DNA from: Apostichopus japonicus
Taxonomy: Eukaryota > Echinodermata > Holothuroidea > Aspidochirotida > Stichopodidae
Length of the DNA stretch: 64,000 nucleotides
Direction: 5' to 3'
NCBI RefSeq assembly: GCF_037975245.1
Contig: NC_092577.1
Span: forward strand, 4,480,001 to 4,544,000
The notes beneath the pieces are model-generated. The model ran no database searches and was not told where the DNA came from. It worked only from the letters and a program-made list of their open reading frames with translations. Positions 1 through 60,838 of this stretch are shown here, piece by piece. How positions within the stretch are numbered: the stretch's first letter is position 1; each line of letters opens with the position of its first letter. Position numbers and translations under genes: made by a program.

Positions 1-1058
1 AATAAAGATTGTTCATTTTAGATAGATAAAAGTCCGCGTCCCCTGTACAATAGTACTAACATTCAGAGGCTATATACATAAACCCATCAAGATGAAGCTA
101 CATTCATCCGGGAGTAACGTGTTGACTACCTGGCCCCCCCCCCCCACCCCGAGGTACCTCAAACCCACGAGATCTTATATCAAAGTTCCAAAAATGTCTC
201 CTCACTAGTCTTTCTCTCATTTTTCCACTGGTGATTTTATGTAAGTATTAATTTCTTGACATGTTCAAGTTTATCTGTAAATTCGACGTCACCCCTGTTG
301 TATTTGTCCGGGTCGGGAGGGTGGATGTGAGGGGTGGGGGTAAGGGGCAAAGGGGACGATCGAAATAAACACAACGGAAATGTGATTGAATTGAACAATT
401 TTTAAGAAGCATTCAAAGATGATAAGAGGTTAGTCACACGCTCTGTGTTTATGGAACAGAAAATGTGTTTGCTCATCGCCTGTTGAAAAACTACGGAGGC
501 TTTAAAGTGACTTTGAGATATTGAGGTAAGCAGATAAATATCTCAATAACAAAACTCAAATGGGGATTTATGGCCTGAAATGACATATTTAAAATGTGTT
601 ACAAAATTGTCAAAGACAAATGTTGTTGAACGTTATTAAAGGGTGCTCCATTGTTTATACAAAGTTAAAAGAAAATATCTTTGGGATTTATAAAACGAAA
701 TATTAACATAAAGGGATACACCGATAAGTACACGTGATCATGAATTTAACCTTTAAAGCAGCATTCAGTTGATTAACTCCTTATGTCCCAATTTCCATGT
801 CATATCATTGTTCCTTGGGGAAAATATTTACACATTGTAATTACTTAACGGGCAGTGGACGCCCCTCCCCCATTGGAAAACTTTTTTTGTGTTAGAGCTA
901 GGGCATTGGGCGAAAGCTTTCTATTCTTTAGCTGGTGGTATTAAATGCTCGTAATTCTCTGATTTTGAGTGTGGGAGGGGAACCCCCCCCCCCCCATTCC
1001 CCACCCCGTTGCTACAGCACTGCGTCTTACACGTTTCATCTCTTTTCCCTTTTCTCAG
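1..1058. other. Non-coding, probably SLC5 intron
   Basis: No coding segment is recognised. The stretch ends in a pyrimidine-rich tract and CAG that act as the splice acceptor of the SLC5 exon, so most of it is probably intron. It has poly-C runs near 133 and 982. At 753-765 it has TTAA followed by AGCAGCATT, the same start as the ends of the TTAA transposon at 4121-14063; this may be a solo terminus or chance. Confidence 0.5.
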
Positions 1059-2351
1059 AGCGTTGTCATGTTGCTTGGATTCCTGGTAACCCTCGTGGCC
1101 AGCTCCATTCAGGTTGGCGGTCTGGTGAATGTGTTCGAGATCAATGCGAGGGATAGGCGTGACACCTTCTTAGACTTCCGTCTCAATCCAACCATTCGTC
1201 ACTCATTTTGGTCCGTTTTCATTGGCTATGGATTTCTCGCAGGGTCGTATGTCGGGACCAATCAAATCATCGTACAGAGGTACATGACTTGCAGAACTTT
1301 CAAACAGTCACAGCTTGCCGCTGGTATAGGAACTATCGGTATCGGTGTAGTAGAATTCCTAGCCGTCTTATGCGGCATGAGTATGTATGCATATTTCGCC
1401 GGATGTGATCCTTTGACTTCCGGTAAAATTCAAAGTTCAGATCAGTTGATGCCTTTTTTAATGGTGGAGCTATTTCAGAAAGCACCCGGTGTGGCCGGTC
1501 TCTTGATATCCGCAGCCTTCAGTGCATCGCTGAGTACGGTCTCATCGGGGGTGAACGCACTCGCGACCATGACTGGCCAAGACTTTATTCGATATTTCTG
1601 GCCAGATATGGAAGATTTTAAATTCACCTTGATCCTGAAATACGTATCGATATTCTTCGGACTGGGTTGCATATGCATGGCGTTCTTAGCCTCGGTACTA
1701 GGCGAGATTCTTCCATTGACCTTGAGTGTCGTCGGAATTCTCAATGGACCGTTACTAGGTGTTTTCAGTCTTGGAACTTACTTTCCACGAGCCAATTCAA
1801 AGGGAGCCGTATGTGGAATTGTAATCGCCATGGCAATAGGAACTTGGCTAAAACTAGGAGCCATGGCTTACCCGCCAATCATAGACGATCCTCCACTTCT
1901 CATTGACCAATGTCACGTTGATACTGAAAACGTCACCAGTATTCTCGCTACTGGTTTGATGGAAGAATTTGTGTCTGACGTCACTCCTTATGTCACCAGT
2001 ATGGCTCCCATGACAGGTGCCATGGACCGCCCGGGTATAGCTCGTCTGTACGGATTGTCGCATGCGTATTACACACCTTTGACGTGTTTCGTTACCATCA
2101 TAGTAGGGATTCTTGTGAGTTTGTTGACAAACTCCAACGATCCCCCTGTTGATCCAAAACTGATCAGTCCTTGGGTAAAGTCCTTCTGCTGTTGTCTACC
2201 GAAGCCATGGAGGGCCATGTTAGGTGATGTCGCAGACGACGACGATGGCAATGAGAGCAAATATAACTACGCACCGGTAGATCTGAAAATGGATGCTAGT
2301 AGATATACAAACGAAGACGAAAATCAAAATGGCGACACCGCAACTGTTTGA
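1059..2351 (+). CDS. SLC5-family Na+/solute symporter, C-terminal large exon (partial)
   Basis: This is the second half of a sodium-coupled solute symporter of the SLC5 family, closest in feel to the SMCT/SMVT group (SLC5A8/A12/A6), a plasma-membrane carrier of monocarboxylates, vitamins or iodide. An acceptor (ttttctcAG) at 1057-1058 opens one uninterrupted 430-codon exon to a TGA at 2349-2351. Visible features are a helix starting VVMLLGFLVTLVASS, the GTNQIIVQRYM segment, the family-typical AAFSASLSTVSSGVNALATM helix whose Ser/Thr residues form the Na2 sodium site in relatives, and further hydrophobic helices to YYTPLTCFVTIIVGILVSLL. A glycosylation sequon NVT lies in the large loop before the last helix. 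The tail is acidic and hydrophilic and ends DTATV, not a class I PDZ ligand. The N-terminal exons should lie left of the window. The frame is intact, so the gene is probably functional. Substrate cannot be told. Confidence 0.85.
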   Translation, partial: SVVMLLGFLVTLVASSIQVGGLVNVFEINARDRRDTFLDFRLNPTIRHSFWSVFIGYGFLAGSYVGTNQIIVQRYMTCRTFKQSQLAAGIGTIGIGVVEFLAVLCGMSMYAYFAGCDPLTSGKIQSSDQLMPFLMVELFQKAPGVAGLLISAAFSASLSTVSSGVNALATMTGQDFIRYFWPDMEDFKFTLILKYVSIFFGLGCICMAFLASVLGEILPLTLSVVGILNGPLLGVFSLGTYFPRANSKGAVCGIVIAMAIGTWLKLGAMAYPPIIDDPPLLIDQCHVDTENVTSILATGLMEEFVSDVTPYVTSMAPMTGAMDRPGIARLYGLSHAYYTPLTCFVTIIVGILVSLLTNSNDPPVDPKLISPWVKSFCCCLPKPWRAMLGDVADDDDGNESKYNYAPVDLKMDASRYTNEDENQNGDTATV

Positions 2352-4116: not shown

Positions 4117-4134
4117 TTAAAGCAGCATTTGCGT
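4117..4134. repeat. Left TTAA duplication and inverted terminus
   Basis: TTAA at 4117-4120 followed by AGCAGCATTTGCGT (4121-4134). It matches the reverse complement of 14049-14063 except for one missing T. Confidence 0.6.
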
Positions 4135-4538
4135 TGGGTCGTTTTTTTCCACCTTTTTAACATGTGCATCGATTTTTTTACATGTATAATCATAAAACAG
4201 TCAACTAAGATACCATCCAAGTTTCACCCTGCCAAGAGCGTTAATTAGCGAGTAATTAACGATTTATGTCGATAACGAGTAAGAGTGTCCACGACAAAGT
4301 TTTCATTTCTCCAAATCCACTAGTTTGAATTCCACCAATCAGTGAATAGTATGTTTATTCATGAGCCGTTGCTTAAAATAGATTCATTCACAACAACCCG
4401 AAAAAGTTGCGTGTGCGTGGGTATCACAGACATACCAACTCCCTGGAAATACACTGTACAAACTAAAGCATTGCATTGTAGTACGTTTCGATATACTGGG
4501 TTGCTTTCGACTCCGGCAAAGTAAAAACTTATTCTATC

Positions 4539-7500
4539 ATGGAAGCGAACTTACAGAAGCGCGCAAAAGGAAAATACAAGAGTTTGAAGAACCTTACTTC
4601 ACCGGAAAAGAGAAAGTGGCGGAAGACTCAAAAGCAAAGGTATGAAGCCACCCGTATTCACCTAGGGAATCAAGTAGAAAGATGGACCGAACTGAAGGAG
4701 AAGTTGGGGCTGAAGAACGACACGGAGGTCGCTCGATATTTGCTAGATAGGTGAGTAATCTCTTCCTTGCTACGACATAAAAGTTCTAGAATTCATTGAA
4801 TCTAAGGCATACCTGCAAATTCTTGAATGGTGAAACAAGAAAAGAATATCAAACTGCCGGTGTATTCATACGACTTCGTTACTAGACCTAAGCCCTTGGC
4901 CTAGGCTACGCCTGCCTAACCCGACTTTAGAACGTGAACAGAGCAGTTTAGGTTTAGTATTTGCTGTTACGACCGTTTATGCTTGAACGTTTATACGCAC
5001 GCTCGACAACGGAATGAATTTTTACCAAAAATTTAGAAGGATATTCTCTTCAGAAACAAGGAAAAATAAAAAAGTAAAAGAAGAAGAAGTGTCCTGGTAT
5101 AGGCTAGTTACCTTTCTGTTTCGTAAAGGAACATAGCCTATGCATGGTGACCATGTTTTTGCATGCTTGGAAGTTGACAAAAGCAGGTGTACTTTGGGCT
5201 AGGCTAGAATCCTTTAACATCTTATTGATCTTAGAAGCTAGGGTGAGAATGTTATAGCCAAAATGATATATTACTCTCACCAGTATCTACGAATTTTGTA
5301 CTCATAATCCTCATATGAAGACCTTCAGTTAACTTTACCTCAATGCAGCCACAGAACAATGTAATGCAATTGCCTATAATATTGGTAACAAATTCAATTT
5401 TAAGTGCTATGAGAAATTGTGTTTCAGTGCCCAAGATCAGTGAAGGATCGCCATAGTATTTGCTTGTAAAAGTGTTTGGTTATTGACTCCAAACCGTGAG
5501 TATCAACATAGGGAATCATAGCAAGAACAAAGAGAAGGGAAATGTAACAATAAAGGTCTTTATTCATGAAACCACCCTGTTGATAAGCAGCATTGCATAA
5601 TGAATGCACAGTAACTCTTGTGGTCAAGGATATCATTCAAGAGATTGAGTCTCTCTTTATGTGGTTTGAGATTGTACACTACAGTATGTTTACAGTCTTG
5701 TCATCATTGTCAGCTCTAAACAGGATGTTGTGGCCATTCATTGTTGCTTTGTACCCTTTTCCCCATTTGTTTAATAAGCCTGGTTAATTTCAAGCCTGTG
5801 AAAGTTGTAATAGTGGTTTAAGATTTATTATTTTCAGTTTTGAGAAAGCATGACAATATACTGTAATAGAATTTACCATGGAAGAACAAAGCAGTGTCCC
5901 ATTAAGCTGACTGTATATGCGAAGTTATTCAACAAAACCCATATCCTAATATCTTTGTTCCAGTTATAAATACATCCTCCCTCGCAGCGGCTTCAACGGT
6001 GATATCTACAACTAATTAGCAATTTGAGCGGCAAGACCAAACAACAAAGTCACTTACTCACAAATATCTTTATTATATCTGTATTAATAGCTTGCTGAAG
6101 CAATCTCTTCATAGATACATCTCATTGCATTATGTTTTAGATATTGTGATATAGTTAAGACAAGTGCACTTGCTTGTATTGTTCTAATATGTCACACAAA
6201 GCTGAATTAATCCAACAATAAATGATAACAAGGAAATCAAATTTCATGATGTAAAAATTACACACTCCAGTTAAAATGATTTATTGTGGTGCTTGAGTTT
6301 GCCAGAATTTTCTTTGAATTCTCTAATGTATTATTCATATACTCCAATATATTGCTTTCGCTGCAATGTTATCTGTACATGTATTTTTACTTTCAGAGTT
6401 GACTCTGCATACTCTCCTTGCAAAACACCAAACATAGGCCTGATGACATCAACACCTGTGTCAAGTATGTCTGCTTCAAGTGAAGATGCACTGCCAGCTA
6501 CAACACCATTTTTATCTGGAGAAACATCATCCGCTGACCAACTTAAGTATGCATGTTTGGATAGTTATGAAAAAAGCAGAAACCTTTCTTGAACATTTTG
6601 CAGTTTATGTGGTGCTGCAATCAAGTACCTAAGCCTTGTCAAGTTATACCCGAAGGCGATGTGGTTCAGTCTCCCACATTTCAAATTTTCGGGTCCATGT
6701 AATCCTTTTTCAATAACCTGGTGCCCTTGGTTTTGTATTTTCATCTCCCTTGGGGTCACTCATTACGACAGATATTCACATTTACATTCATTGCTTTTAC
6801 ATATCTTGCTTGTGTAACAAAACAGTTTCAAATGCTTTCATATGCAAACGTCTTAGCCCTGGGTCAAGCTTTTCACAGTAAGACTGTGACTTTTACAGCC
6901 AAAAAATATATGGATATAAAAATGTTACCTTAGATGATTCCAATATGTGTCAGAGAATTTAAATTATTATTACTTTTTTTTCAGTTTAAGTTTTGACTAC
7001 ACTGATGTTGGGGACTACATCATTCCACATGATACCCCAGGCTCAATTGACAGGGACTCTGACCCTGACTGGGATTCTGGTGAAGAAGATGCCGACTCCT
7101 CTGACATGAGTGTTGATCTCAACGTTAGGTATGTCTGCTTCTTGACTTCAGCCTCAAATCTTATATATATCCGCTCCTTTTTGTTGGAATAAAAGAGAAT
7201 CAGGGCTAAATTAATGCCTTTATTAAATGCACATGTAAATTTTATTTTTCTCTTACAGTCATCCAGAACAACCAGCAGATTTGGACCTGGACACCATTCT
7301 TTCCTTTGCAGAGACTGATCAGTCTGAAGATGAGGATGTAGATGATGGGACAGGTTCTGAGGCATGTGCAGAAGATACTCTATTCATTACTTACAAGGAG
7401 TCCCTTTTGCAACTACTAAAGGATTGTAGACCTAAGTCTTGTGTTAGAGAATCTTGCCAGTCTCCTCCGCAAGACGTCACAAAATTTGTCGGAACTGCTG

Positions 7501-10209
7501 TTGGTGTGAAATGGGTTCGTTTCAGTTTCTATTTGGCATTTTGTCAGTCCAGATTTGGCTACTATATTTAAGTTATCCCTCAATTTAAATTATTTCTCAC
7601 CAAAGGCAAATAGCATCTTTGCCTTGGAGGTGACACTTGCTTATAGACAAGATAACTAAAAAAGTAAACATTACTTGAACTTGGTATATGTGTAACCCTT
7701 GGTGAGTTGGTGATCCTTAGTAAGTTTCATGGATGTCGAAGGTCATTTGAGGTCAAAATTACATAACTCTGTAAATACTGTATCATAAAACTGAAACTTC
7801 ACTTGGTACATCTTTAAGTGCCTGGTCAGTAGATGATCCCTTTTGTTTTACATGGAGATCAAAGGGCAACTGAGGTCAGAGTCCCTAAACCTTGTGAACA
7901 TGATATCTTAAGCAGGTAAAGTTGCTTGACCTTCAAAAAAAACCTTGGTACTACTGTAGCCCTCGGTAGTTAGAGGTTTATTTGCTTGTTAATATTTTTT
8001 TTTATATATATTTAGTTCTCACTTATTTGATTACTACTTCTTTTGTCTCTTTTCCAGATTTGTGCTCATGGACACGTGAGCAAGATTTGGCATTCTCAGC
8101 CAAAGCTTAAAGGGAATAATGCGGGAGACATAGCAGTCTCAGCTGCAGTTATACTGTCTGGAAATAACTACGCAAAAATCAAAATGATGTTTAGGTTTAT
8201 GAACCTTGGTATGTGCCACTCTGCTCTCCACAGTTATAGCCAGAGGACTTACACCTTTCCGGCAATTGAGGCACACTGGAAGCAGCTTCAGACTGAGCTA
8301 TTACTTGCAAGGAAAGGGAAAACAGTAGTTATCGCTGGTAAGTCGTGTAATTAATATTTTACAGCCCTGCATGTCAGGGGCATATATAATGGCAATTTTT
8401 TCATGATGTACATAATTTTACTGTTTAGATATGTGTTCATGATTATGTGGTACTTCTTCAACAGGTGACGGAAGGAACGACAGTCCTGGGCACTGTGCAC
8501 AATACTGCACCTACAGTGTAATGGATTATGAAACCTGCGATATACTGGACATTCAGGTTGTTGACAAGAGGGAAGCTGACTTAAAGTCGACCAACATGGA
8601 AAAAATTGCTTTCTTACGAGCACTGGAGACGCTAGAGAAGAGCGATGTAAAGGTTGAGGAAGTAGTTACAGATGCTCACCCACAAATTAAATCTTACCTA
8701 AGTAAGCAATTGATGTACTTTCGTAGGCTTGTTGATGGCACAATATTTTTCATGTGTGTGTGTATGTTCACATATACTTGTCTTATGACTGGTTGTACTA
8801 AACACAAGGAAAAATTATATTGCTTTGTAAGCTTTCATTTAGAATAATGTTCATTTGCAGATTTTTTAATTCTTTATCATACTGAGTTACCAAGACACAG
8901 ATTCCATTGTCACCCACATGGTATATTTGAAGTTTTTCTTTTCTGTCTACTGTACAGAGGGTCTTGAAGGAACCACTCATTCGTTTGACGTTTGGCATGG
9001 GGCAAAAAATATTGGCAAGAAATTGAGTGAGGTAAGTCCGATTGCCTTGTGTTTCATATGTCAACATGATTATTTTTTCTCTTTTGATCTAAAAATAATG
9101 TACCTCAAACACATCCTGTTGTTACCTGTTTTCTCTTCAGGCAGCAAAAAAGGCAAGGAACAGGCCACTCATGCCATGGATTAGTGACATAACAAGGCAC
9201 TTTTGGTACTGCTCACAGCATGCAGATGGAAGTGCAGACACATTTTTTGTAAGTTAAATATGTTCTTGTGACTTAATAATATTACATTCAAAACATGCAC
9301 TTCAGTCATAATCATTTTAACTAAGTTAGGCAGCCAGTATAAATACTTCTTGTGATGGAATTCTGCTATACTTTCTATTTCACCTTTATCCTTGTCATGT
9401 CATGATCTCTTCTTTCCTTTTAAGGCAAACTGGAGAGGAATTCTTCACCACGTTGTTGGAGATCATGAATGGGCTCTAGGTGATGGAGTTAGTCCAGCAT
9501 GTTTCCAGCATGGACCTTTACCAGCTAGTCAGAAGGACCTTGAACCAGACTCTCCTGCACATGCAGCACTGAGAGAGATTGTGCTTGACATGAATCTTAT
9601 AAGAAACATCAAATACTACACGAAGTTCAGGTACTGGTTTTGGTGCACAAATCTTGAATATATGTTACCCTTTTGTTAGGATATTGGTAGATATCTTGCA
9701 CATGCCCTGCCACGTGGTGAAGTAATCAATGATGAGCAGCTAGAAGTATGAAAATACTTTCAGGCTAGTTGCAGTGGAAATTTCTCCTAAAATTATGGAA
9801 TATTCCTTCATATCACTTTCAGACACACATCAGCACTAGAAAATTTCCAGAGCCATGTGCTAGTTTATGCTGCCAAGCGGTTTGCCTATGGGTAAGTATG
9901 TTGTCCAAGATTTTGAATTCTGCTCATTTATTATGAAATCTCATTGAAATCATGTAATAATCATGTATGAAATCATGTAATGTTTCAATTCCTACATATT
10001 TTTCAGCCCTCCTTCGTATAAGGCTAGAAATTTGTTAGCTGGTATTGACTACCAACACCACAAAGGAAGACGACAAGCAGAAAGAGATGGGGAACCTGTG
10101 TAAGTTACATACTGTACTATCATCACATCACTTTCCTTTATTAAGGCCTGCAAGTACAGAAATATGAACTGATATGTTTTGTTTCATTTTCTCTTGCAGT
10201 TTCACATGA
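4539..10209 (+). CDS. Spliced transposase-like (RNase H-fold) protein, 12 exons
   Basis: I reconstruct 12 exons: 4539-4750, 6397-6546, 6985-7128, 7259-7514, 8058-8337, 8465-8701, 8958-9031, 9141-9248, 9425-9630, 9823-9891, 10007-10099, 10200-10209. All have AG/GT borders (exon 4 has a weak GTTCGT donor) and every phase matches, giving about 612 residues. The N-terminus is basic (KRKWRKTQKQRYEATR) with the motif LGLKNDTEVARYLLD. Exons 2-4 are acidic and Ser/Thr-rich. From exon 4/5 comes a domain recognisable from uncharacterised, transposon-derived proteins of fish, echinoderms and cnidarians: the end of exon 4 (VKW), then GHVSKIWHSQP, GDGRNDSPGHCAQYCTY, VEEVVTDAHPQIKSYL, SFDVWHGAKNIGKKL, WRGILHHVVGDHEWALGDG, AKRFAYG|PPSYKARNLLAG. 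The two Asp motifs (GDGR, VTDAH) and a later Glu (GDHEW) would suit a DDE catalytic triad, by inference. The stop TGA is three codons into the last exon, ahead of remnants of the usual C-terminus. Confidence 0.75.
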
Positions 10210-10456
10210 AATTATTCCAAATCTGCAGGTAGATGGACCTGTGTCCCAGTCATGCAAAAAAAAACCTTCAAGTACACTAATGAAAGATGTATTTAGAAGG
10301 AGGCTCATTGATAATAAGTCCCAACGAAGTCATGTGGTTTTGGCAGAAGATGACCCCAGGCGCATCTCCGGGACTATACGCCCAAACCAACCACCATCTG
10401 TCCATCAACTTCTTGAAAATCACAAGAGCAGGATGGAAGCAAGTTCATCTCTTTAA
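10210..10456 (+). pseudogene. Decayed C-terminal part of the transposase-like gene
   Basis: Past the TGA at 10207-10209, the same frame continues with NYSKSAGRWTCVPV and KKTFKYTNE. This matches the conserved 'YsK..rrW...PV...K.ykYt' stretch of the family, then runs into TAG. A second frame (from about 10280 to TGA/TAA at 10456) carries the family's end: KDVFRRRLIDN, then DDPRRISGTIRPNQPPS and ENHKSRM. So the ancestral last exon reached about 10456 and has one nonsense change (probably CGA to TGA) and one single-base frameshift near 10284. Because both lie in the last exon, a truncated protein could still be made. Confidence 0.7.
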
Positions 10457-10584
10457 TCTTAGCCATCACTCAAATGTTTTATTTTTTTCAGGTTGGGGTG
10501 GGGGGGGGACTGGTGGGGGAATTGTTACATGTTGTTGTAGTGGACGAATATGGTTCCCAAAGCTTATGCTCAAATGTTATGGGA

Positions 10585-10590
10585 AATAAA
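10585..10590 (+). promoter_or_regulatory. Polyadenylation signal of transposase-like gene
   Basis: AATAAA about 130 bp after the end of the ancestral last exon, in the right place for the plus-strand gene. Confidence 0.45.
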
Positions 10591-10599
10591 TGCATTGTG

Positions 10600-11871
10600 G
10601 TTCTACTGTACCATAGTTTGTTACGAATCTGTCATTATTTGTAATAAGAGCATGTAATATATGTACAGGAAAAAGTATGAAAATACTGAGATGTGACCAG
10701 CATTGCATTCTCGGCCGTTCTTGGCCTAAAGTTAATGTAATATATCACCATGTTAAATCTTTCAGCTCCCACCCCCCCCCCCCCCTCCTGATTTTTGCAG
10801 ATATTGCGCATATGCTCTCATTTTGAACCATTTTACCTCCCCCAAGAAAAATCACCTTCCTGTGCATGCAGTGTGTTACAACTTTATGACAGCAAAGCTC
10901 CCCTTAATTAGGAATCTTCAAAGGATTTTCATTGTGTAACCTTCATGACCTGAACTCAACTTTGATCTCCCCAAAAAACAATAAGCTTCTTGTCCTTATG
11001 TTTTTACACTTTACTACCACATATGTCATCTGTCCTGACTTCTACTCCTTGAGATAGTATGTTAACAAGTTTCACAATTTTAACAATTTTAATCCCAAAT
11101 GAACTTTGACCCATTCCATAAAAGTAGGCATCATTATCAGCGATGTAGACTTTTCCTTGCCAGCCTAATGGTATATTTTGTAACAAAATAGCACAGAAAG
11201 CAAAAAACTCAATGCAGTTTATAAATACTGTTCATATATTTCACATACATAGAACGGCTGGGCATGCATATGTGAGAAAAAAATTATGAAAGACCAAAAA
11301 TACTATATTGTAGTACTACATGTAATGAAAGGCCAATGCAACTTCCAACAACAAATTGATAAGAATTCTTAGAAAAAAAAGAAACACGTAATTCAAAAGA
11401 GCAAGGTAACAAATGGTAAAGTATGTTTAAGAAGAAACAGAAGTTTCCATGGAATGTGTCTTCGTAGAGTCAAGGTGAAATCTGCAGCTGTGTAGGATAC
11501 TAAGTACTGATAAAAGTTCTTAATTTAGGTTTTTGTGTGTAGACATTTATATGATTTTTGTTATATTAACCTATGGAGATGGTCATCTTAGAAAAATAAA
11601 CTACTGTTTGAAAGAAGTGAAGGGTGGGTGAGTGAAGCAGTGAAAAACTGTTTTGGATTAAAGTCTTTTCAGTAAATAGAAAATATGTGATATAAAAATA
11701 AAGATGATTTTGGAATGACAGTTTTTGATGGCATAACAAATGAACGATAAAGAAGTGAAAAAATAGTCTGATTAATGGCAAGTATAAAAACATATATGTA
11801 AATAAATAGAAAAATGTGAAGAAGAAAAATTGAATACCGGCAAGAATAGCTAACAAAGATAAATGAAAACA
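10600..11871. other. Region between the two convergent genes
   Basis: No coding sequence recognised. It holds a poly-C run near 10775 and A/T-rich stretches. Minus-strand reading frames at 11566-11872 are hydrophobic low-complexity translations of T-rich DNA and are not believed. Confidence 0.4.
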
Positions 11872-13637
11872 TTAAAGCAATCTACCTGGAATGTACCCAA
11901 CATAGTTATCATGTGGGTCAGGAAAAGTGGACCTGATCCGCCAGACAACACAACTGGGAACTGCTCTCCTATTTCTGTTGCCAAGGCGACCATAATGCCA
12001 CAGTACAAATTGTCTGTATGCAGCATGTCTATTGGCTTTGTTGGGCTCTTCTCCTCTGTTACCGCCACAGATGGCTCTTCTTAGTTCTCGGGCGACACCA
12101 AGGACCAAAGGGTCAATCACCACAGTATCAATTTCCTGGAAAATATGACATTGAAGTTGTAGAAAGTTATGTCCAATTATTAAAACACCCATTATAGTCT
12201 TTCAGTTCTTGTCACTGACGCCATATGCTATAAACTTCTTAAACTGATTGCTGAAAATAACACTTTAGTCACGGAAGGTTATGTCATAACAACATATTTT
12301 GTTATCTTGAGTTGTAAAAGAAATTTAATTTGTCTATGCTGTCATCACTGAGCACTATTGCTAGCCACAAAGCAAATTTTGGGTTCCAGATAAAACATTA
12401 AGAAAACAGTACTGACCGGTCTAAGAGAGAGACAGTTGTCACCTGTCCCTAGACAGCACACCCGTTCCTCTACTGTTGGCATTTCTCTGCACCTCTCACA
12501 AGTGCACCAGCCAGGTGAGTCTGGGATTGTCATACGCTGTGGGTGCTGCTGACGTTCCCATATATCAAAAAAGAGAGCAGGGTAGCTGTTCATCAACTGC
12601 AGAACGAGCTCTCGCAGCTGTTCAGAGTCCACTCTGTGTATCATTTCCTGAAAGAGGCCACAAACGTTATGTTGCATTTCAAATGTAATACCCAAAATAA
12701 CCTTATGACAAAAACTGTAAGCTTATGTTTTTTTATGTTCCTATCCTCTCTCAACCACCTCTCCCACTCCTTCCATGATAAATTATCAGTGACAATTTTA
12801 CAGTCATGGGCATTTGTCATATTGGTTCACATAGAAAGATGCTCATAACTCGAAAAGTAAATTTCATAGAAGTTAAGAAATAGTATTGGTACCCTTTCCA
12901 CACCAAACTATTTTTTTTACACACCCAGAGACTCCCGTGTTTGAGTACATGTTCTTGAGAGGATTTGTAATGAAAGCAAAGAAACATAGTAAATGAGAAT
13001 ATAGCCACTTTATGTGCCCTGATATTTTCTGTCCTCTCCTGCTGTTGATTAGCAACTTGCTGTCTTGCTGCAGCTGCTGTCAACCGTGGCATACCTGCAC
13101 CTCTTCCACCACGGCCCCTTCCTCCACGGCCTGTACCCCTCCTTCCCCTTCTCCCAGATGTCCTCCTTGATGGTGTTTCTGGTGAATCACCTAAGGACTG
13201 CTACATTATGACAGAAGAAATAAGATAGTTATTTACTTTCCAACTGATAGTGTTTGTTTTTCTTTTAGAGATAACCTTTGGAGCATATTTGCTTATGATC
13301 CATCATAATTCATGGGTCAAACTGACATTCCTGAAGCCTAGCTAACATTAAATCTAACTACTCACTGCACTAGACGACATTCATTTTAACTAAGCAAATA
13401 TTCGCAAACGTCACTACACTACGTTAAGTTCGTCGTGATATGGGTTTGTTGTTAGGCCTAAAGTTACCCTAACATCGGTACAGTACAGTAGTTTGGTCAC
13501 ACATGTGTATAGGCATAGTCTAGTGTATACCGCGATCTAGCGATCGCGGAAAACGGAGAGTACATCTACAAAGATGAAGAATTTTCCGACAGTGTTGGTA
13601 AATGATAGGAACTTACATTGGTATTTCTTGTTTCCAT
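11872..13637 (-). CDS. RG-rich protein with P2X7 C-terminal (ballast)-like zinc domain
   Basis: Four minus-strand exons fit in phase: 13637-13617 (METRNTN, strong GTAAGT donor), 13200-13009, 12647-12417, 12135-11872 (TAA), about 235 residues. The donor after exon 2 (AAA|GTGGCT) is weak and that border is the least certain. Exon 2 encodes a Gly/Arg-rich segment (TGRGGRGRGGRGAG), often RNA-binding, then a basic Gln-rich helix. Exons 3-4 carry the domain known from the cytoplasmic end of vertebrate P2X7 receptors (ballast domain, which binds zinc): LVLQLMNSYPALFFDI, then WCTCERCREMPTVEERVCC with clustered Cys, and RHAAYRQFVLWHYGRLGNRN followed by AVPSCVVWRIRSTFPDP. There is no channel part, so this is not a P2X receptor. 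Such stand-alone ballast-domain genes are known in invertebrates, function unknown. Here it lies inside a probable TTAA transposon, opposite to its transposase-like gene. Confidence 0.8.
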
Positions 13638-14048
13638 GCTAAGGGTGAGCAAATTTCTTCTTGCGAAATTCTTCTTTTGCAGTAGCGAATATCTGCACAC
13701 TGTCATGCGAGATGGACAAGCCTGGTAACGATGTAGATGTATAGGCTGAAGTAACGTTATGTAGCCTGCCTACACTATCTGTCGCTTCGCGATGCCTTGC
13801 AATCAGCTGATCATTGTTTTATTATTTACCACGTTATGCAATAACGTTCATCGTGTTTGAATATTCATATATAGGCTGGGTTTACTGAGATCCTAACGGA
13901 AAAGACCTTCGAGAAAAACAACGTTGAAAGTTCTAAATTTTGCGACTTTTATTCCACGATTTGAAGTTAGAGTTGAATAAATAAGCTTATTATGTATGTC
14001 GTTATGGCATGGTGGGGTCAATGAGGTTGAGAAAATCATGGGAAAATG
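13638..14048. promoter_or_regulatory. Right terminal region, presumed promoter of the ballast-domain gene
   Basis: About 410 bp between the ballast-gene ATG and the right terminus. No coding sequence seen. By position it should hold the minus-strand promoter, as 4135-4538 should for the plus-strand gene. No clear TATA box identified. Confidence 0.35.
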
Positions 14049-14067
14049 ACGCAAAATGCTGCTTTAA
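14049..14067. repeat. Right inverted terminus and TTAA duplication
   Basis: ACGCAAAATGCTGCT (14049-14063) followed by TTAA (14064-14067), the inverted partner of 4117-4134. Confidence 0.6.
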
Positions 14068-18285: not shown

Positions 18286-21200
18286 ATGGCAAACGTAAGT
18301 TTTTGTGAAGAGGTAGGTATATCTTTTGAGAGTGTGAAAGCAGCTCTGTCAGATGACGCTGAGGAAGGGCCTAGGCCTAGCTCTGAGTCTGACTCAGTGT
18401 TAAATGTCAGACTGCCTAGCACTCGACTTTCAAATGGTGTAGTGTTTGAATTGTGGAATATGGTAGGAATGTGTAAATGTGCTAATCAAGTAAGATCTTT
18501 CATTAAAGTTGTAAGCAATTTTTTTGATTCAAGTGTTTTAAATTGTAAAGAAAGATCTGTTCTTTCCAAAGTGTTGCAAGTTGTAAAAACAAGACGTGCT
18601 TTGTCAAAGCTGAAAAGCAAAGATAAGTTGTGTAATTTCTTGCGCCAAGTGTCTCTAAGTCTTATCTTTAAGCCGGATAGCGAATCAGCTCCCACCGTCG
18701 AATCTGCTCCCATCGTCGAATCTACTCCCACCGTCGAATCCACTCCCACTGTCGTAGAACAGCTCACAAGACTGCAACAACATCACATGCAGCTTCAGAG
18801 GGACTTTGAAGACCTGAAAGAGAAAACCTCATCGCAGAGTAGTGTACTGGAAGAGGTTCTTGCTGAGCGTGAGCTACTACAGGAAAGAGTGAAGCAGCTG
18901 GAAAGGGATGTCGCCATCGAACGTCGTATCGCAAAGGATAGCCAGACACGGAGGACTCAACTGGACAAAGGAAGCTCTAAGAACATCGCGAGGCGGGAAC
19001 AACGGAAGACAGAGAAGATAGTACGACTGAAGCAGCAGCTGAAAGGCAAGGACGTGGAGTTGAAACAACAGAGCAAGAAGCACACCAGCACCATCGTGGA
19101 AAAGAGTTACCAATTGCAGCGAGCCAAGAAACAGGTAAGGTATTACAAGAAAAAAGCCGCCGCCTCTACCAGCCAACAAAAGTTCGAGGATGTGAGTGAA
19201 CGACTCAACTACAGAGAAGAACAGATGGAGCAGCTACAGGAGCGTTTAGACGATATCCTCGACAAAGAATGCGGCAAGGTAAATACTATAGTGAAAGGTA
19301 AGTACAGGGATAGTATTAGGAGTGTTTACCAGCACTTGATGTGCCTGAATGTTGGAAGCAATAATTGTGAAGACATTGTGCGCACAGTGCTGAAGGGCAT
19401 TGTAGGCCTTGGTGTAGAGAGATTGCCTAAGGCCACCTTTGCCAAGGAAATGGTTTTTGAGGCTAGGGCCATGGCCCAACTTCAGTTCTGCGATGCAGTT
19501 CTTGAAGATGACAATCTTACTCTACAGTGATGGCACAACTAAGTTTTGGCCATCATTATGGGTCCTACGATGTCAGTTTTGGTGAAGGTAAGGTATTCAC
19601 TCTTGGAGTGCGAGAGACAGCTGATGGTACAGCTGTCACAACTTTAAGAGTATTGGAAGAGATTGTACAAGATCTAGTCGATCTTGGTGGGCAGGACAAG
19701 GTTAGGCTCGACTTGGGTTGTTTCTTGACAAAAATCAAGAATGTCATGAGTGATAGACACTCCGTCCAGGAAAAGTTCAATAACTTCTTGTTGATTTCAG
19801 AGGGAAGGTTCTGCCAGCCGTAAGGGGTGACTGGGACAGTTTGTCATTGACACAGAGAGGGAAAGCCAAAGAACTCAATGAGTTTTTCTGTGGCATGCAC
19901 TTTGTTGTTGGTCTTGCTGAACAAGCATCGTCAACAATGAAGGTTTGGGAGCAGATGATTTTTGGTGAGGAGAAAGTAGGTGCCCTAGCTGTGACCGGCT
20001 TTGCGGGGAAGGATGAAGGTGGGACTGAACGGCTTGTTCGCACTGTGTGCAAAGGCGTTCAGGACCGTGGTTGTGAGAAGAGTGGCAAAGCAGCACAGTT
20101 TAGGGCCTTTCTATCTGCAGAGTTTGGTGTCAATGACGTCCCATTAGCCCCTTTTAAAGGAAATAGGTTTAATATCCTATTTCACAATGGAGCTGGTGTG
20201 TATCACTTGTATAAGCATCTCTTGGTTTTCTTCAATAGGCACAAGTCAGAGAACAAATTGATGCTGGCTGTTGCTGCGGATCTTGAAGTTCCGCAGTACA
20301 TAGCTGGTGTCAAATCTTTGGGTATTATCGACAAAGTCATCACTGGACCACTCTGGCGGGCAATGGAGAAAGAAAAGCACGTGCTAGCGATGAACGAACG
20401 TTACGACAGGCTTCTTGAGTGCCTCGCGAAATGGAGCAAAGACTCCACAGACTTACTAACTGGCAGCGACATCCTCTACTCTGATGTTCCTCTGAAGAAG
20501 AACTCTGTGTACGACAGCCTGATGAAGCCCTGTGAGCTCGACGGAATGGTCAAACAGCTGCTGGAAATGCTCTGTTCATCTTTCAAAATGCTCAGTGAGA
20601 GAATGCTATCTGAGCATTTGAAAGGTGGCAAGTATTCCAGGGTGTCTGCTGACCAGCACAGAGAAATGCAGAGTGTGCCAACAACAAACACTACAGTGGA
20701 ACGCGACTTTGGTATGCTAGATCGCCTCATGAGGGAAAAACCAAGTGCCTCGTGCATAGCGCTGGAAGCCATGATCATGTACAAGAGGAACAAAACATCA
20801 GAATGGTCTGCTTCCCTGGAAGATTCGCAACGTTCATTCGCATTGTTCTTGAAGCTAGCACAGAAGTCCAAGGCCCAACAAAAGAAAGCATACGCGGACC
20901 GACTAGCCACCATCAAAGCTGCAAGAGAACAGAAAGAGCTTGGTAAGAAGGCAGCAATCTTGAAGAAGGCAGACCAAGATCGTGCCAGAAAGCTTCTCCT
21001 GGGAAAGGAAATCAAGTCTGTTGGTGGTTTAGCGGAGTCCGCGAGCGAGCTTGACCAGAGACTCAGCGAACTGAAATCGGTAAAAGGTAAGTCTAAGTAT
21101 CTGCAGACACAGCTGAAGTATCGAAGGTTTGTACTTGGTGCCCGGAACGAAGGTGGTGTTCTAAACGTGTCAGCTGGCGGAAAGCCAAAAACAGTTGAGC

Positions 21201-21808
21201 AGTTGAAGATCTCTCTGCTTGGGGTAATTGTCTGTGACAACGAAGAATTAGAAGCAGCATCAACCAGTTTTCAAAACAGGGCTATTGGTTTGGCTCCGGT
21301 TGATGCTGTGGAAGCCTTCAAAAGCAGATTACAACCCCCACCAGCAAAGAAAACGCGATTGACTTCAGGCAGTAACATCAAATTGCCTGAGGAGCTTGTT
21401 GACAAACGGATTGAACACCACACCGAGGAAGAGGGGAAAGTGGACTGGTACAAAGGTACAGTTGTGGGCGCGAAAGGTGCCAAGTACTTCGTTCGATACG
21501 ATGGGTTCCCTCGAGTGTACTCATACAAAGCGAAGGAGATTGAGGAGGACATTCAGGCTGGAGATTTACAGGTTCTTATACTTTTCCCAGGTGAGATTTT
21601 AAATAAGAAAATTTTGCATTTGTGGTTAGTAGATGACGAAGAGGTCTGGTGTGAAGGTGTCATTGTTAGTTTTTCTAAGGATGAAGGCAATGATACCTTG
21701 TTCGAAATTACTTATGTGAGCGAGGACCCTGAGGATGAGGGTGAAGATGAAGTGTTTGAATGTGCGTTGCTTCAAGACTACCTGAAGCATGAAGTTCGTT
21801 TCATATAG
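18286..21808 (+). pseudogene. Transposon-like coiled-coil/RNase H-like gene with Tudor-like tail, three frame changes
   Basis: One long uninterrupted-looking coding stretch in three frames: 18286-19530 (414 aa), 19527-19823 and about 19797-21808. The N-terminal third is Ser-rich, then has four ESAPTV-type repeats and a long coiled coil (about residues 155-330: RLQQHHMQLQRDFEDLKEK onward). The middle carries motifs of an uncharacterised transposase-like family of cnidarians and echinoderms: SDGTTK|FGHHYGSYDVSF, then a unit around NEFFCGMHFVVGLAEQAS, then NTTVERDFGMLDRLMREKPS. A basic, Lys/Ala-rich helix follows. The end has two Tudor/chromo-like barrels (VDWYKGTVVGAKGAKYFVRY; VWCEGVIVSF). Frames change near 19525, within TTTT at 19532-19536, and near 19797 where a 'ttgatttcag' also resembles a splice acceptor. 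Could be a decayed transposase, or a live gene with assembly indels. No introns needed otherwise. Confidence 0.65.
18682..18753 (+). repeat. In-frame 18-bp tandem repeat x4
   Basis: Four copies of an 18-bp unit coding E-S-[AT]-P-[TI]-V lie inside the transposon-like gene, just before its coiled coil. Copies differ by one to three bases, mostly silent or A/T and T/I changes, so the reading frame has been kept. Confidence 0.85.
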
Positions 21809-23275: not shown

Positions 23276-23458
23276 AGCATCATTATGAATTAACAGCTTG
23301 TTTGGTATTTTTCTATAACCCCCCCCCCAAAAAAAAAATTAATATCTATCACATTTTATTTTCATTGGGGTACCTATAAATGAGGAGCCTGCAGTATCAC
23401 AAGTTTTATAAGATTATAAAAATTGTATAAAGTTCTACGTTTTATTTCTAAGGATATA

Positions 23459-24800
23459 GGTTATAAGAAGTAGTTTAGCTTTCTTTTGAACCTGCGATGA
23501 TTGCCATCATAAATACAAGGAATTAAAAAGAAAATACCAAAATGGAGAGGAACTGGGGTGGCTATTAGGGGAGGAGGAGGCCACCCATCACTTCCAATTG
23601 TAATCTTCCTGTGCATTGTTTTTTCCAAGTCATAAATCCATAAAATCTTCATGTCAGAAAACTTGAGATGAAGAAACAGTTTGTTTTGATACTTGGAAGC
23701 AGACAGTTTTGATGGTAGTCAGAGCAATTTCAAAAGGGAAGTTTTTATCGATAGTTTGTTGCTTGCTCCGTTGTCATTACAGTGACTTAAGGTAAATTTA
23801 TTAACAGTGCTATGTGTTACTAATATGTTAGATTATTAACACAGCCTTTAGTAGGTTGGGCATGACGGGTAATATAATTCAACAGCAGTGTCACAGTCAT
23901 AGTGTATAAGGTTATAAGAAGTATGATTCGCTTTCTTTTGAACCTGCAATGATTGCCATCAAATATACAGAGAATTATAAAGAAAATACCAAAATGGAGA
24001 GGAACTGGGGTGGCTATTAGGGGAGGAGGAGGCCACCCATCACTTCCAATTGCAATCTTTCTGTACATTGTTTTTTCCAAGTCATAAATCCATCAAATCT
24101 TCATGTCAGAAAACTTGAGATGAAGAAACAGTTTGTTTTGATACTTTGAAGCAGACAGTTTTGATGGTAGTCAGAGCAATTTCAAATGGGAAGTTTTTAT
24201 CGATAGTTTGTTGCTTGCTCCGTTGTCATTACAGTGACTTAAGGTAAATTTATTAACAGTGCTATGTGTTACTAATATGTTAGATTATTAACACAGCCTT
24301 TAGTAGGTTGGTCATGACGGGTAATATAATTCAACAGCAGTGTCACAGTCATAGTGTATAAGGTTATAAGAAGTATGATTCGCTTTCTTTTGAACCTGCA
24401 ATGATTGCCATCAAATATACAAAGAATTATAAAGAAAATACTAAAATGGAGAGGAACTGGGGTGGCTATTAGGGGAGGAGGAGGCCACCCATCACTTCCA
24501 ATTGCAATCTTTCTGTACATTGTTTTTTCCAAGTCATAAATCCATCAAATCTTCATGTCAGAAAACTTGAGATGGAGAAACAGTTTGTTTTGATACTTTG
24601 AAGCAGACAAAGTTTTGATGGTATTCACGGCAATTTCAAGAGGAAGTTTTTATCGATAGTTTGTTGCTTGCTCCGTTGTCATAACAGTAAATTAGATTTA
24701 TTATTCGAGCAATGTGTGACGTTAGTTTGTTAACGTATCTCATAGTCTGTTGGGCAATTAATTCTACAGCAGTGTCACAGTCACAAGCTTTATGTAGAGT
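23459..24800. repeat. ~451-bp tandem repeat, three copies
   Basis: Units start with ggttataagaag at 23459, 23910 and 24362. Copies 2 and 3 are nearly identical over their first 300 bp; copy 1 and the end of copy 3 are more diverged. Minus-strand frames of 63-86 codons inside repeat with the unit and share GSDGWPPPPLIATPVPLHFG, but they lack a start context or known domain and are probably not genes. Confidence 0.9.
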
Positions 24801-48439: not shown

Positions 48440-49940
48440 TACATATTGGTTAACATGCATGTGTGACAGTAACTTTATCATTGTTCCCACGCTTTGCACT
48501 ATTAAAGAAGCCTTTATATTACATACTTTCTTGAATCCTCTTTCCGACCCCGACCCCCCCCCCGACACATATACATATATACACATATACATATTGGTTA
48601 ACATGCATGTGTGACAGTAACTTTATTGTGCCCACGCTTAGGAGAATTGTGCCCACTCTTGGGAAAGTATGACTGAAATATAGTAGTCTTCACAGAAACT
48701 GTTCGAAAATTAAGCGATTTAGAAGGCATTGAAACCCAATACAAACGAGTAGACCCATTAGGAACTGCACTATTTAAGAAGCCTATATATAACATACTTT
48801 CTTGAATCCTCTTTCCGACCCCCGAACCCCCCCCCCCTCCCAGACACATATACATATATACACATATACATATTGGTAAACATGCATGTGTGACAGCAAC
48901 TTTATTGTGCCCACGCTTAGGAGATTTGTGCCCACGCTTGGGAAAGTATGACTGAAATATAGTAGTCTTCACAGAAACTGTTCGAAAATTAAGCGATTTA
49001 GAAAGCATTAAAGCCCAATACAAACGAGTAGACCCTTTAGGAACTGCACTATTTAAGAAGCCTATATATTACATACTTTCTTGAATCCTCTTTCCGACCC
49101 CCGAACCCCCCCCCCCTCCCCGACAAATATACATATATACACATATACATATTGGTAAACATGCATGTGTGACAGCAACTTTATTGTGCCCACGCTTAGG
49201 AGATTTGTGCCCACGCTTGGGAAAGTATGACTGAAATATAGTAGTCTTCACAGAAACTGTTCGAAAATTAAGCGATTTAGAAAGCATTAAAGCCCAATAA
49301 AAACGAGTAGACCCTTTAGGAACTGCACTATTTAAGAAGCCTATATATTACATACTTTCTTGAATCCTCTTTCCGACCCCCCCCCCCGACACATATACAT
49401 ATATACACATATACATATTGGTTAACATGCATGTGTGACAGTAACTTCATTGTGCCCACGCTTAGGAGAATTGTGCCCACGCTTGGGAAAGTATGACTGA
49501 AATATAGTAGTCTTTACAGAAACTGTTCGAAAATTAAGCGATTTAGAAAGCATTAAAACCCAATAAAAACGAGTAGACCCTTTAGGAACTGCACTATTTA
49601 AGAAGCCTATATATTACATACTTTCTTGAATCCTCTTTCCTACCCCCGAACCCCCCCCCCCCCGACACATATACATATATACACATATACATATTGGTTA
49701 ACATGCATGTGTGACAGTAACTTTATTGTGCCCACGCTTAGGAGATCTGTGCCCACGCTTGGGAAAGTATGACTGAAATATAGTAGTCTTCACAGAAACT
49801 GTTCGAAAATTAAGCGATTTAGAAGGCATTTAAACCCAATACAAACGAGTAGACCCTTTAGGAACTGCACTATTTAAGAAGCCTATATATTACATACTTT
49901 CTTGAATCCTCTTTCCGACCCCCGCCCCCCCCCCCGCGCC
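48440..49940. repeat. ~276-bp tandem array, five copies
   Basis: gggaaagtatgactgaaata stands at 48661, 48940, 49219, 49485 and 49761 (spacings 279, 279, 266, 276). Each unit has a poly-C tract after ctctttccgacc, then acacatatacatatatacac, ttaacatgcatgtgtgacag and gtgcccacgcttaggaga. Copies are nearly identical; length differences come mainly from the poly-C. Minus-strand frames of 72-141 codons are by-products of the repeat. Confidence 0.95.
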
Positions 49941-52070: not shown

Positions 52071-52628
52071 TAACATTTAAAAAATGTAGTAGTTTGAAAG
52101 ATTATTGAACTTTCAAGATTTATATATATAGGTTTACTTGAGTATTCACAAATTCCAATCTCCAGTCCACAATCACGAGTATTCTTCCAATGCTCGCCCC
52201 ACCCCTTCTTTTTTACGTCCTCTTCACTCATTATCGATTCATGGACAGAACTTGATAGTAATTTCTGATAAAATCTTCCTCAGTTGCATCCTATATGTAA
52301 ACTGAATGTTCCGTTGTTTGCACATATGTCGAAAATGATTTATATCGCTTGAGAAAATAAGCATTATTCAAAAATTGGCATATTCACGTGTGGTGTTTGT
52401 AAAAATCACGCACCTATATGCAAATATATCATAGCTAAGATTGTCCTGTGTCCGTTATATAATTCCATTAAAGAAATGCATACCTGAGACACGGAAGTAT
52501 TATCCTGTGAGGGTACCGTAATACATTCATGCTTGAGACACATGCAAGTCTTAAATAAACAGAATAGCAAGTCCCAAACATATAGACCTCCCTTACCGGT
52601 TTCGAACCTCTGGACATACAATCAGCGT

Positions 52629-52697
52629 CCATAGCCTATAGTGGTTAGGGTGTCCGCGTACAGAGCGGGAGGCCCGTGGTTCGAATCCCGGTGGAGG
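52629..52697 (+). mobile_element. tRNA-like sequence, probably SINE head
   Basis: AGCCT...AGGCT can pair as acceptor stem. D-arm-like AGTGGTTAGG, an anticodon-like arm TCCGC-GTACAGA-GCGGG and a perfect B box GGTTCGAATCC follow. The acceptor stem is only 5 bp and the T stem is mismatched, so this is more likely a tRNA-derived SINE head or pseudo-tRNA than a working tRNA; the loop triplet would be ACA. Confidence 0.5.
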
Positions 52698-52741
52698 CTG
52701 AAAGTTTTTTCACTGTTCTTGATTTTCCAACTCATTACGAT

Positions 52742-57319: not shown

Positions 57320-59017
57320 TTAACCTTTTCTTAACTCATTATCAGTACGACTCATATAATCCGCTCCTACATTATCCTTTCCTCTAATGACTTCTATTTT
57401 GTACCTATATGGCTATAGAACAAGTGCCCATCTTAGGATTCTTCCATTTGCGATTTTGTTTCTTTTGAGACAAGCGAGTGGTTGGTGATCAGTCTGAATT
57501 ATGAATTCTCTACCAAAAAGGTATGGTTCAAATTTTTGAACGGCCCACACTATAGCCAGACACTCCTTTTCTGTTACCGAATAGCCCTTTTGTGCTTTGT
57601 TTAATTTCTTACTGGCAAATGCCAAAGGGAATGTTTCTTCTCCTTCTACTTGCAATAACACTGAACCAATTCCAATGTCTGATGCATCGCTCCGGAGTAT
57701 AAATATTTTTTCCAAGTTAGGCAAGTGTAATATTGGGGATTTAATGAGTGAACCTTTTAATGTTCCGAAAGATCTTTCTTGGCTTTCCCCCCATATAATT
57801 TTATTAGGTGCTCCCTTCTTTGTACAGTCGGTCAAAGGACATGCAATCGCCGCAAAATCGGGTATGAACCTTCTTTAATACCCAACCAGTCCTAAAAAAG
57901 ATCGTAACTCCTTTTTGGTTTTGGGCCTGAGTGCTCGTTTCACCGCCTCTATCTTATCTGGCTTTGGTTTAACCAGTCCTCTGCCAATTAGGTGGCCCAG
58001 AAATTCAATCTCATCATAACCTATGAAACATTTGGTGGGTTTTGCAGTTAGGTTTGCTTTCCGTAAGCGCTTGAATACTTCCAATAATTTTCTCTTATGT
58101 TCTTCCCATGTTGGCGAGTGAATTAATATATCGTCTATGTAGTTGTGGACTCCACTTAAGCCTTGGAGTAATTTCCTCATAATTCGGCTAAATGTTGCCG
58201 CAGCATTAACTAAGCCAAAAGGCATAGTTTCGAATTGGTAAAGTCCCCCATGTGTTATAAATGAAACATACTTTTTGGATTCATCATCCATTGGGACCTG
58301 CCAGTAGCCTTTAGAAAGATCGATTTTAGAGAAATAGAGATCTTTAGAGAGTTTGGCGAATATCTCCTCTTGATCAGGGATGGGTTCGGCATCAACTTTT
58401 GTCACCTGATTAAGTTTTCTTAGGTCTACACAGTGCCTTAATGTTCCATCTGGTTTTCGCAACGCTACTAACGGAAATGCGTACTCTCCATCACCCCTAG
58501 TCACTATTCCCATATCTATCATACTTTGTATATCCTTCTCCATTTCCTCTCTAAGAGCATGAGGGGTCGAGTATGGTTTGCACCGTATTGGGGTTTCATC
58601 GATGACTTGTATCACATGTTTTCCTAACGTAGTTTTACCCGGTATGTCCGTAAACACATCTTTGAAATTACTTAATAGGATCCGTTTAATTTGTCCTGTT
58701 GTTTCCCAATCTAGTTGTACATTAATGTTAACATCCTCTATGCCCTCATTTGGTACTACAGGTGGTAAATGCAATATTTCATCGCCTTTGGGTTCACCTA
58801 TTGACTCATCTTTAGCTTCTATCGGTAACAATGCTAGTGTTACAACCTCAAATGCCTCATTTGTTTTGCTCTTTTGTAGTGGTTTGATGTCCTCATTTCT
58901 TCGATAATATCTCTTAAGGAGGTTTGCATGAAACGTTTGCACTCTATTCCCTAAATCTACCCGGTAGTTCATGCGGTTTAGTTTCTCTCTAATCTTATAT
59001 GGTCCCTTCCATTGCAT
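57320..59017 (-). pseudogene. Reverse transcriptase-RNase H region of gypsy pol
   Basis: Begins with the integrase C-terminal GPY/F-like part (QWKGPYKI ... HANLLKRYY), then a linker and a gypsy-type reverse transcriptase with RHCVDLRKLNQ, PFGLVNAAATF and the catalytic YIDD, to 57875. An in-frame TAA stops it there. The same frame goes on through the connection and RNase H (DAS, EKECLAIVWAV, TDHQPL, all acidic residues present) to a TAG at 57413-57415, and then about 30 more codons to TAA at 57320. So the protein is otherwise colinear but has two nonsense codons. It is separated from integrase by a one-base shift near 59040. Confidence 0.85.
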
Positions 59018-59024
59018 GATTATT

Positions 59025-60057
59025 TTATTTGTGTACGTGGGTAACTAAGAGCAATACCTCGTCCCCTACCTTAAACTCCCTATTCCTAGCGGTTTTATTG
59101 TATTGGATTTTATTTCTGAACTTTGCTTTCTTGATTTCCTGTTTAGCTAGTTCACACGTTTTCTCTAGCTTTTGCTGCAAGTCAATAACATACTGGTAAG
59201 TGGTCTTAATTTCGGTGTCCTCACACTTTCCCGTCCACAAGTCTTTTAGTATGGCCATAGGCCCCCTAACAGTCCGCCCAAATAACATTTCAAAAGGAGA
59301 AAACCCTGTACTGGGATGAGTAGTTTCACGATAGGCAAATAGCAGTGGATTGATATATCTATCCCAGTCTTTTGGACATTCTTCGCACATTTTTCTTATC
59401 ATATTTTTGAGTGTTCCATTATAACGCTCTACCAGGCCATTACACATTGCGTGGTATGGGGTTGTAGTTAAAGGACGAATTGATAACAACCGATTAACCT
59501 CCCGCATTACCCCAGAGGTGAACTGACTACCACGATCTGTTAATACCTCTCGAGGAATCCCTAACCTACTGTACATTGTTAGCAGTTCTTCCGCTACCGC
59601 CTCAGTGTCAATGGACTTAAGAGGGGTCGCTTCTGGATATCTGGTTGCATAATCCATGAGTACAAGGATGTACCTATGTCCCCTATCAGTAACTGGTTTA
59701 ATTGGTCCTACTAAGTCGATAGCTACGCGTTCGAATGGGTTGTTAATTGAAGGCATATCACCTAGTGGGACTTTGGTTATTCTTCCCTTCGATATGATCC
59801 TTTGACAGATATCACAAGATTGGCAATACCGTCTAACATGTGCTCCAATACCAGGCCAATAGAAGTTACTTAATATTTTATCCAGTGTTTTTGTACTTGA
59901 TTCCTCAGTTTATGAGGTACCACTACTTGCTGCAAACTCTCCCCAAATTCGTCTTTGAACCTCCTATACAAAATGTCATCTTCTTTAAAATATTCAACCG
60001 TTTTACCCTTCTTTCCCGATTTGTGTTCCCCTGTATCCGCTAATTTCCTACTTTTTT
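59025..60057 (-). pseudogene. Integrase region of gypsy pol
   Basis: 59756-59025 holds the integrase core: AIDLVGP, LTDRGSQF and VERYNGTLK give the D,D,E triad, followed by a basic C-terminal part. Upstream (60057-59757) are the N-terminal zinc-finger remnants in two frames: KLRNQV and a later Cys-Cys half; a deletion has removed the stretch with the His pair, and the frame changes there. Lies before reverse transcriptase, unlike standard gypsy elements. Confidence 0.8.
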
Positions 60058-60830: not shown

Positions 60831-60838
60831 CCCTAGCC

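Follow-up and report, generated by a model that had tools for sequence, protein, structure and literature searches.

A probable Kol0-type Kolobok transposon encoding a P2X7 ballast-domain protein in the genome of Apostichopus japonicus

In the genome of the sea cucumber Apostichopus japonicus, two genes face each other tail to tail between a pair of TTAA sequences. One encodes a transposase-like protein; the other encodes a protein related to the ballast domain of the receptor P2X7. The stretch analysed here, which we call the window, comprises 64,000 nucleotides (positions 4,480,001 to 4,544,000 of contig NC_092577.1, forward strand), and the element between the two TTAAs occupies 9,943 bp of it, from 4121 to 14063. 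According to Kojima & Bao 2022 (PMC9587614), the Kol0 lineage of Kolobok DNA transposons encodes a second protein, KolX, and we use this name for the ballast-domain gene. The features of the locus indicate that the element is very probably a Kolobok transposon of the Kol0 type, present at full length, belonging to a recently active family and encoding two convergent proteins.

RESULTS

The element and its two genes

The ends of the element define it well. They are inverted with respect to each other and pair over 19 positions counted from the TTAA, with a single gap that arises because the left end is one T short. Among the 23,739 pairs of TTAA in the window that lie 5-15 kb apart, none has a longer exact inverted match than this one, which extends for 10 nt after the TTAA; the second-best pair matches over 9 nt and uses the same right end. 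Since the element's own pair is the best of all these, ends formed by chance were rejected. The start codons of the transposase and KolX genes lie 418 bp from the left end and 426 bp from the right end. On all of these points, the TTAA borders with inverted ends and the two distances, a preliminary description made from the letters of this stretch proved accurate (Table 1).

The KolX gene is the clearer of the two. Its protein matches the Pfam family P2RX7_C at 6e-26 and, among solved structures of the PDB, chains of P2X7 at 2.8e-10, which bears out the earlier claim of a ballast-domain gene converging with the transposase. Sequence comparison finds all seven zinc cysteines of P2X7 in the window KolX, together with an arginine-histidine pair at the position that matches P2X7. 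The N-terminal part is basic and rich in arginine and glycine. In the exon model, the end of exon 2 is the least certain boundary. A search of viral contigs for the ballast protein found no relative.

The transposase gene was modelled with twelve exons, and all 11 introns of the model start with GT and end with AG. By eye, the spliced model contains candidate DDD/E residues, a DVWH motif (DxxH) after the second D and, before the last E, an HHCH-like pattern that is a candidate for the zinc finger of Kolobok transposases. The acidic residues sit in settings that we take to be typical of Kolobok. Comparison of the transposase with solved structures, with viral contigs and with prokaryote genomes found no relative.

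Could the element be a piggyBac transposon that acquired a ballast gene? piggyBac also targets TTAA, so the borders would suit it, and a KolX-like protein occurs in a few piggyBac families. The remaining evidence points the other way. No piggyBac domain appears among the Pfam matches of the transposase at E up to 1. According to PMC9587614, a rule for the terminal bases, RR/YY, tells Kolobok from piggyBac. The termini here are 5'-AG ... CT-3' in five copies of the element and GG...CT in one (C17b, described below), in keeping with the Kolobok form of the rule (5'-RR, YY-3'). The transposase aligns with that of a neighbouring family in the same genome (locus L051) at 40% over 294 positions, and that one has, by eye, the same DxxH layout. 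All seven cysteines are kept in this KolX. A piggyBac origin is therefore very improbable, and a Kolobok transposon remains the preferred reading.

Table 1. Features of the element and of the surrounding window
Feature	Position	Strand	Remarks
Left TTAA target-site copy	4117..4120	.	TTAA at both ends in six of six aligned copies
Left terminal inverted repeat	4121..4134	+	lacks one T that all other full-length copies have
Left terminal/5' non-coding region	4121..4538	+	first ~246 bp match at least 31 further places at ~96%
Probable Kolobok DDD/E transposase gene	4539..10299	+	spliced model, twelve exons; frame broken in last exon
Transposase exons 1-6	4539-4750, 6397-6546, 6985-7128, 7259-7514, 8058-8337, 8465-8701	+
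Transposase exons 7-12	8958-9031, 9141-9248, 9425-9630, 9823-9891, 10007-10099, 10200-	+
KolX / P2X7 ballast-domain gene, 235 aa	11872..13637	-	four exons: 13637-13617, 13200-13009, 12647-12417, 12135-11872
Right terminal/5' non-coding region of KolX	13638..14063	-	identity 97.8-100% in four other full-length copies, 91% in internally deleted copy
Right terminal inverted repeat	14049..14063	-
Right TTAA target-site copy	14064..14067	.	TTAA at both ends in six of six aligned copies
Lone copy of TTAA plus start of terminal repeat	753-765	+	exact over 13 bp; no partner end recognised
Sodium:solute symporter coding stretch, upstream of element	969-2351	+	Pfam SSF 1.9e-20
Two long open reading frames (414, 655 aa)	18286-21808	+	only Spin/Ssty match, under cut-off; possibly another mobile element
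Tandem array	23458-24688		452-bp unit, 2.7 copies
Tandem array	48495-49935		279-bp unit, 5.3 copies
tRNA gene	52624-52700	+	tRNA-Cys per ARAGORN
LTR-retrotransposon-like genes	57875-61975	-	gag (SCAN-like, Pfam 8.5e-08), open reading frame without Pfam match (probably protease), integrase, reverse transcriptase

Outside the element, the window holds the further features that close Table 1. Among these, the order of the retrotransposon-like genes, with integrase before reverse transcriptase, recalls what we understand to be Gmr1-like Gypsy elements.

Copies of the family in the genome

Does the element occur elsewhere with the same ends and the same genes? The genome searched comprises 671,581,487 bp in 35 contigs. 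With the left 420 bp as query and 40 of 1,163 candidates scored, the search returned at least eight near-complete left ends (the window's included), one partial end (C17b) and the many short matches noted in Table 1. We read eight places besides the window: C14, C16, C21, a second place on C17, C17b and three on C3. An end-to-end element with both genes lies at the first four of these, so that the further copies with both termini and both genes that the preliminary description had anticipated were found. The second C17 place (G000:C17:4369412), about 115 kb from the window copy, is a segmental duplication or assembly duplicate and not a separate insertion, because its flanks are those of the window copy (identity over 200 bp: 99.5% and 100%). 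No other flanks in the comparison match one another; the left flank of C21 entered it with 3 bp only. The two also count as a pair among the six aligned copies with TTAA at both ends.

With the window and its twin counted as one, four independent sites (the others being C14, C16 and C21) accordingly carry both ends and both genes. The full-length copies at independent sites diverge by 0.84-1.76%, and at C14 both frames are open (697 codons for the transposase and 235 for KolX). C17b keeps both ends, with internal deletions that take out most of KolX. This is a real, young transposon family.

Short derivatives accompany the full-length copies. Six of the short left-end matches were read (L025-L029, L031), and every one proved to be an element ~0.7-0.8 kb long that is bordered by TTAA and has the two ends of the family. 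In five of these six, the left subterminal stretch is tandemly repeated, starting inside the terminal repeat. Separately, the three left-end pieces on C3 (L013-L015, L021-L023; 6.98-7.16 Mb) lie within about 170 kb of one another, and the rest of the element was not seen in the 18 kb read at each of these three places.

Ballast-domain genes elsewhere in the genome

The KolX protein was also used as a query, with 150 of 444 candidates scored. It has at least 104 matches in the genome, which merge to at least 87 loci; a locus here means a matching place, relics included, rather than a working gene. Of these loci, 7 belong to the family of the window element. Another 36 have one uninterrupted match (from KolX residue 125 or earlier to residue 190 or later), a further 36 are matched by no more than the last ~50 residues, and 8 remain.

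Within the family, both genes are present at five of the seven loci, two of the five being the segmental-duplicate pair. At the other two, on C7 (L035) and at 30.75 Mb on C16 (L037, L057), the match to the family ends at window positions 11102 and 11662, short of the transposase, and the short stretch read beyond it contains no transposase match. These two look like right-end pieces.

What stands beside the uninterrupted ballast genes of other families? We examined 11 of the 36 loci (L051-L056, L058-L062), and all 11 have the C-terminal part of a Kolobok transposase in tail-to-tail orientation to the ballast gene, at a distance of 0.5-1.3 kb. The 11 are not independent cases, because they fall into three similarity groups (L051-L053 with L056; L054, L055, L058, L059 and L062; L060 and L061). 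The transposase was found at 1e-4 in eight of the 11, and L062 also gave a strong match. L059 and L060, missed at this threshold, were matched through transposase pieces of sister loci: L059 also by the L051 piece at 1.2e-4, L060 only by the L061 piece. Fourteen control windows were taken from the 64-kb window outside the element; three queries at a threshold of 1e-4 and eight at 1e-2 found no match in any of them.

The loci that match only the last exon appear different. Three of the 36 were examined (L063-L065), and none has a transposase match on the 3' side, where one would be expected, within about 1.8-2.3 kb. L064 is a relic that belongs to the L061 family, with 78% identity over 77 residues. 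L063 (1090-2187) and L065 (1208-2239) are two-exon ballast genes whose intron immediately precedes the YRxxAY motif; about 1-2 kb was read to each side of both, and no Kolobok transposase match appeared there. The first exon of L063 matches Pfam P2RX7_C at 5.6e-10; that of L065 has no Pfam match at 0.01, and its assignment rests on the last exon and the cysteines.

Such genes without a visible transposase raise another explanation for the window element, namely that a host ballast gene was trapped once between unrelated TTAA ends, by chance or by a one-off capture. L063 and L065 speak for it. A single capture, however, does not account for the recurrence of both genes with both ends at four independent sites, nor for the tail-to-tail pair in three other groups of ballast loci. 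We consider this explanation the least credible of the alternatives, and read the ballast gene as a regular part of the transposon.

The earlier proposal that ballast genes spread as the second gene of this kind of transposon is supported by five of seven loci within the family and by all 11 of those examined in other families. Not every ballast gene is visibly part of a transposon, however: the three last-exon loci examined have no transposase match within the 1.8-2.3 kb given above.

In comparison with a P2X7 chain, which we take to be that of rat, the closest sequence is the uninterrupted KolX of L054, with 40% identity; the window KolX has 28% and the two-exon genes 27-32%. As a pointer to the origin of the P2X7 tail, this ranking by identity is suggestive only. 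A tree of the ballast domain comprised seven short sequences, too small a set to place P2X7, and its topology is not used as evidence.

From these observations one might tentatively distinguish two populations of ballast genes, a view that we hold to be possible and rather less than probable. The first would be KolX in Kolobok elements, uninterrupted or in four exons and tail to tail with the transposase. The second would be a large class with an intron before YRxxAY that lies outside Kolobok and may have been domesticated by the host and expanded. In that case P2X7 would owe its tail to the intronless transposon type, and transposon genes could account for some of the 'ancestral synteny' of ballast genes described in 2020.

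DISCUSSION

Is the family still young and active?

Several findings weigh against taking the element for a recently active Kol0 transposon. Membership in Kol0 was assigned from features and not from a tree. The best Pfam match of the transposase, to the Mutator-like PF20700 (8e-05, residues 388-502), falls under the cut-off of that family, and two further matches are weaker and implausible. Kolobok transposases are said usually to have a THAP domain (PMC6004289); none was matched by Pfam at E up to 1. In the window copy, a stop at codon 613 interrupts the last exon of the transposase, and among the six copies translated only the frame of C14 is intact. The KolX frame is intact in two of five full-length copies (the window and C14, 235 codons each) and broken in C16, C17a and C21; the C21 copy also has internal deletions and an insertion of ~0.6 kb. 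Nor do the codons of KolX speak for its upkeep: window and C14 differ by 3 silent and 2 replacement changes, window and C21 by 6 silent and 8 replacement changes, and these differences are too few to show selection.

The broken frames, transposase in five of six copies and KolX in three of five, are what an old, dead repeat without recent movement would have. Against such a repeat stand the low divergence between full-length copies at independent sites, the open frames of both genes at C14, and the short left-end matches, of which all those found (at least 31) have kept ~96% identity to the first ~246 bp. A dead repeat is accordingly unlikely, though less so than the two other alternatives, and a recently active transposon with some damaged copies agrees better with the evidence. 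The window copy itself has probably lost unaided movement, because its own transposase is broken near the C-terminal end, while its KolX frame is still open. The transposase-like gene of the preliminary description is present, spliced and probably of Kolobok type, but its frame in this copy is interrupted.

How might the element work?

The anatomy of the element, its insertion at several TTAA sites, the presence of both genes in young copies and the existence of short derivatives with the same ends are established. What is known of Kolobok elements, together with the recurrence of TTAA at the insertion sites, leads us to infer cut-and-paste movement, in which the transposase would bind both inverted ends, excise the element and place it into a TTAA site. 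The short derivatives of 0.7-0.8 kb would have been moved in trans. KolX would be a zinc-binding protein of the ballast fold, judging by sequence comparison. That KolX occurs in the full-length copies, and that related families have it in an equivalent arrangement, points to some role in transposition. We give about even chances to the idea that KolX is an accessory of the transposition complex or a regulator, acting through its basic arginine/glycine-rich N-terminal part and its zinc domain.

These findings matter in three ways. They confirm, independently and at the level of a genome, the published claim that the domain peculiar to P2X7 among the P2X receptors is part of a mobile element. 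The young two-gene copies allow tests of KolX in transposition and hence of the role of the ballast fold before P2X7. They also call for caution: invertebrate genes annotated as ballast-domain genes can be transposon genes, and numerous ones.

Comparison with known systems

In the literature searched, KolX together with Kolobok, and Kolobok together with sea cucumber, were found only in Kojima & Bao 2022 (PMC9587614); P2X7 together with Kolobok occurs there and in one review. According to that account, KolX has a ballast fold with seven cysteines, P2X7 derived from a P2X4-like gene fused to KolX, and nanor is proposed to be a domesticated KolX. The fusion of a transposon ballast gene to a P2X receptor, which the preliminary description had put forward, is thus supported and agrees with an origin already published; the window element is a well-supported new example. 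'Cargo', the earlier label for the ballast gene, is too weak, as KolX is, according to PMC9587614, a permanent second protein of the Kol0 lineage.

The element shares with the Kol0 lineage (Kolobok-1_XT type), as characterised in PMC9587614, its TTAA duplications, its 5'-RR...YY-3' ends and, judged by sequence, a KolX of the ballast fold; by eye, its transposase also has candidate DDD/E residues and the DxxH motif of that lineage. It differs in that this Apostichopus japonicus family has no detected THAP domain and a KolX gene in four exons. KolobokP elements, as the same source gives them, likewise have, besides the Kolobok transposase, another gene read from the other strand, but they have terminal direct repeats of ~450/660 bp and a His-Me nuclease, whereas here the longest listed direct repeats are 27 nt and the transposase is accompanied by a ballast gene. 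KolobokP was rejected on these grounds: among the 20 largest of 38 repeat families there is no long direct repeat, and the second gene is P2RX7_C, with no His-Me nuclease.

The XKol elements of Xenopus (PMC6004289) resemble this element in their TTAA sites, in ends that start with AG, in length (6.8-13.9 kb) and in having short non-autonomous relatives (T2-MITE); unlike it, they are described as having a THAP domain. The term P2X does not occur in the main text of the XKol paper.

Finally, the vertebrate P2X7 ballast domain and the ZCD genes of Rump 2020 (PMC7016195) share with KolX a homologous domain, the seven zinc cysteines and the arginine-histidine pair. The count in Rump 2020 stays below 10 genes for every species covered there. 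Here at least 87 loci match when relics are counted, although both the method and the set of species differ. In P2X7 the ballast domain is part of a fused ion channel, whereas here it is a separate gene inside a transposon.

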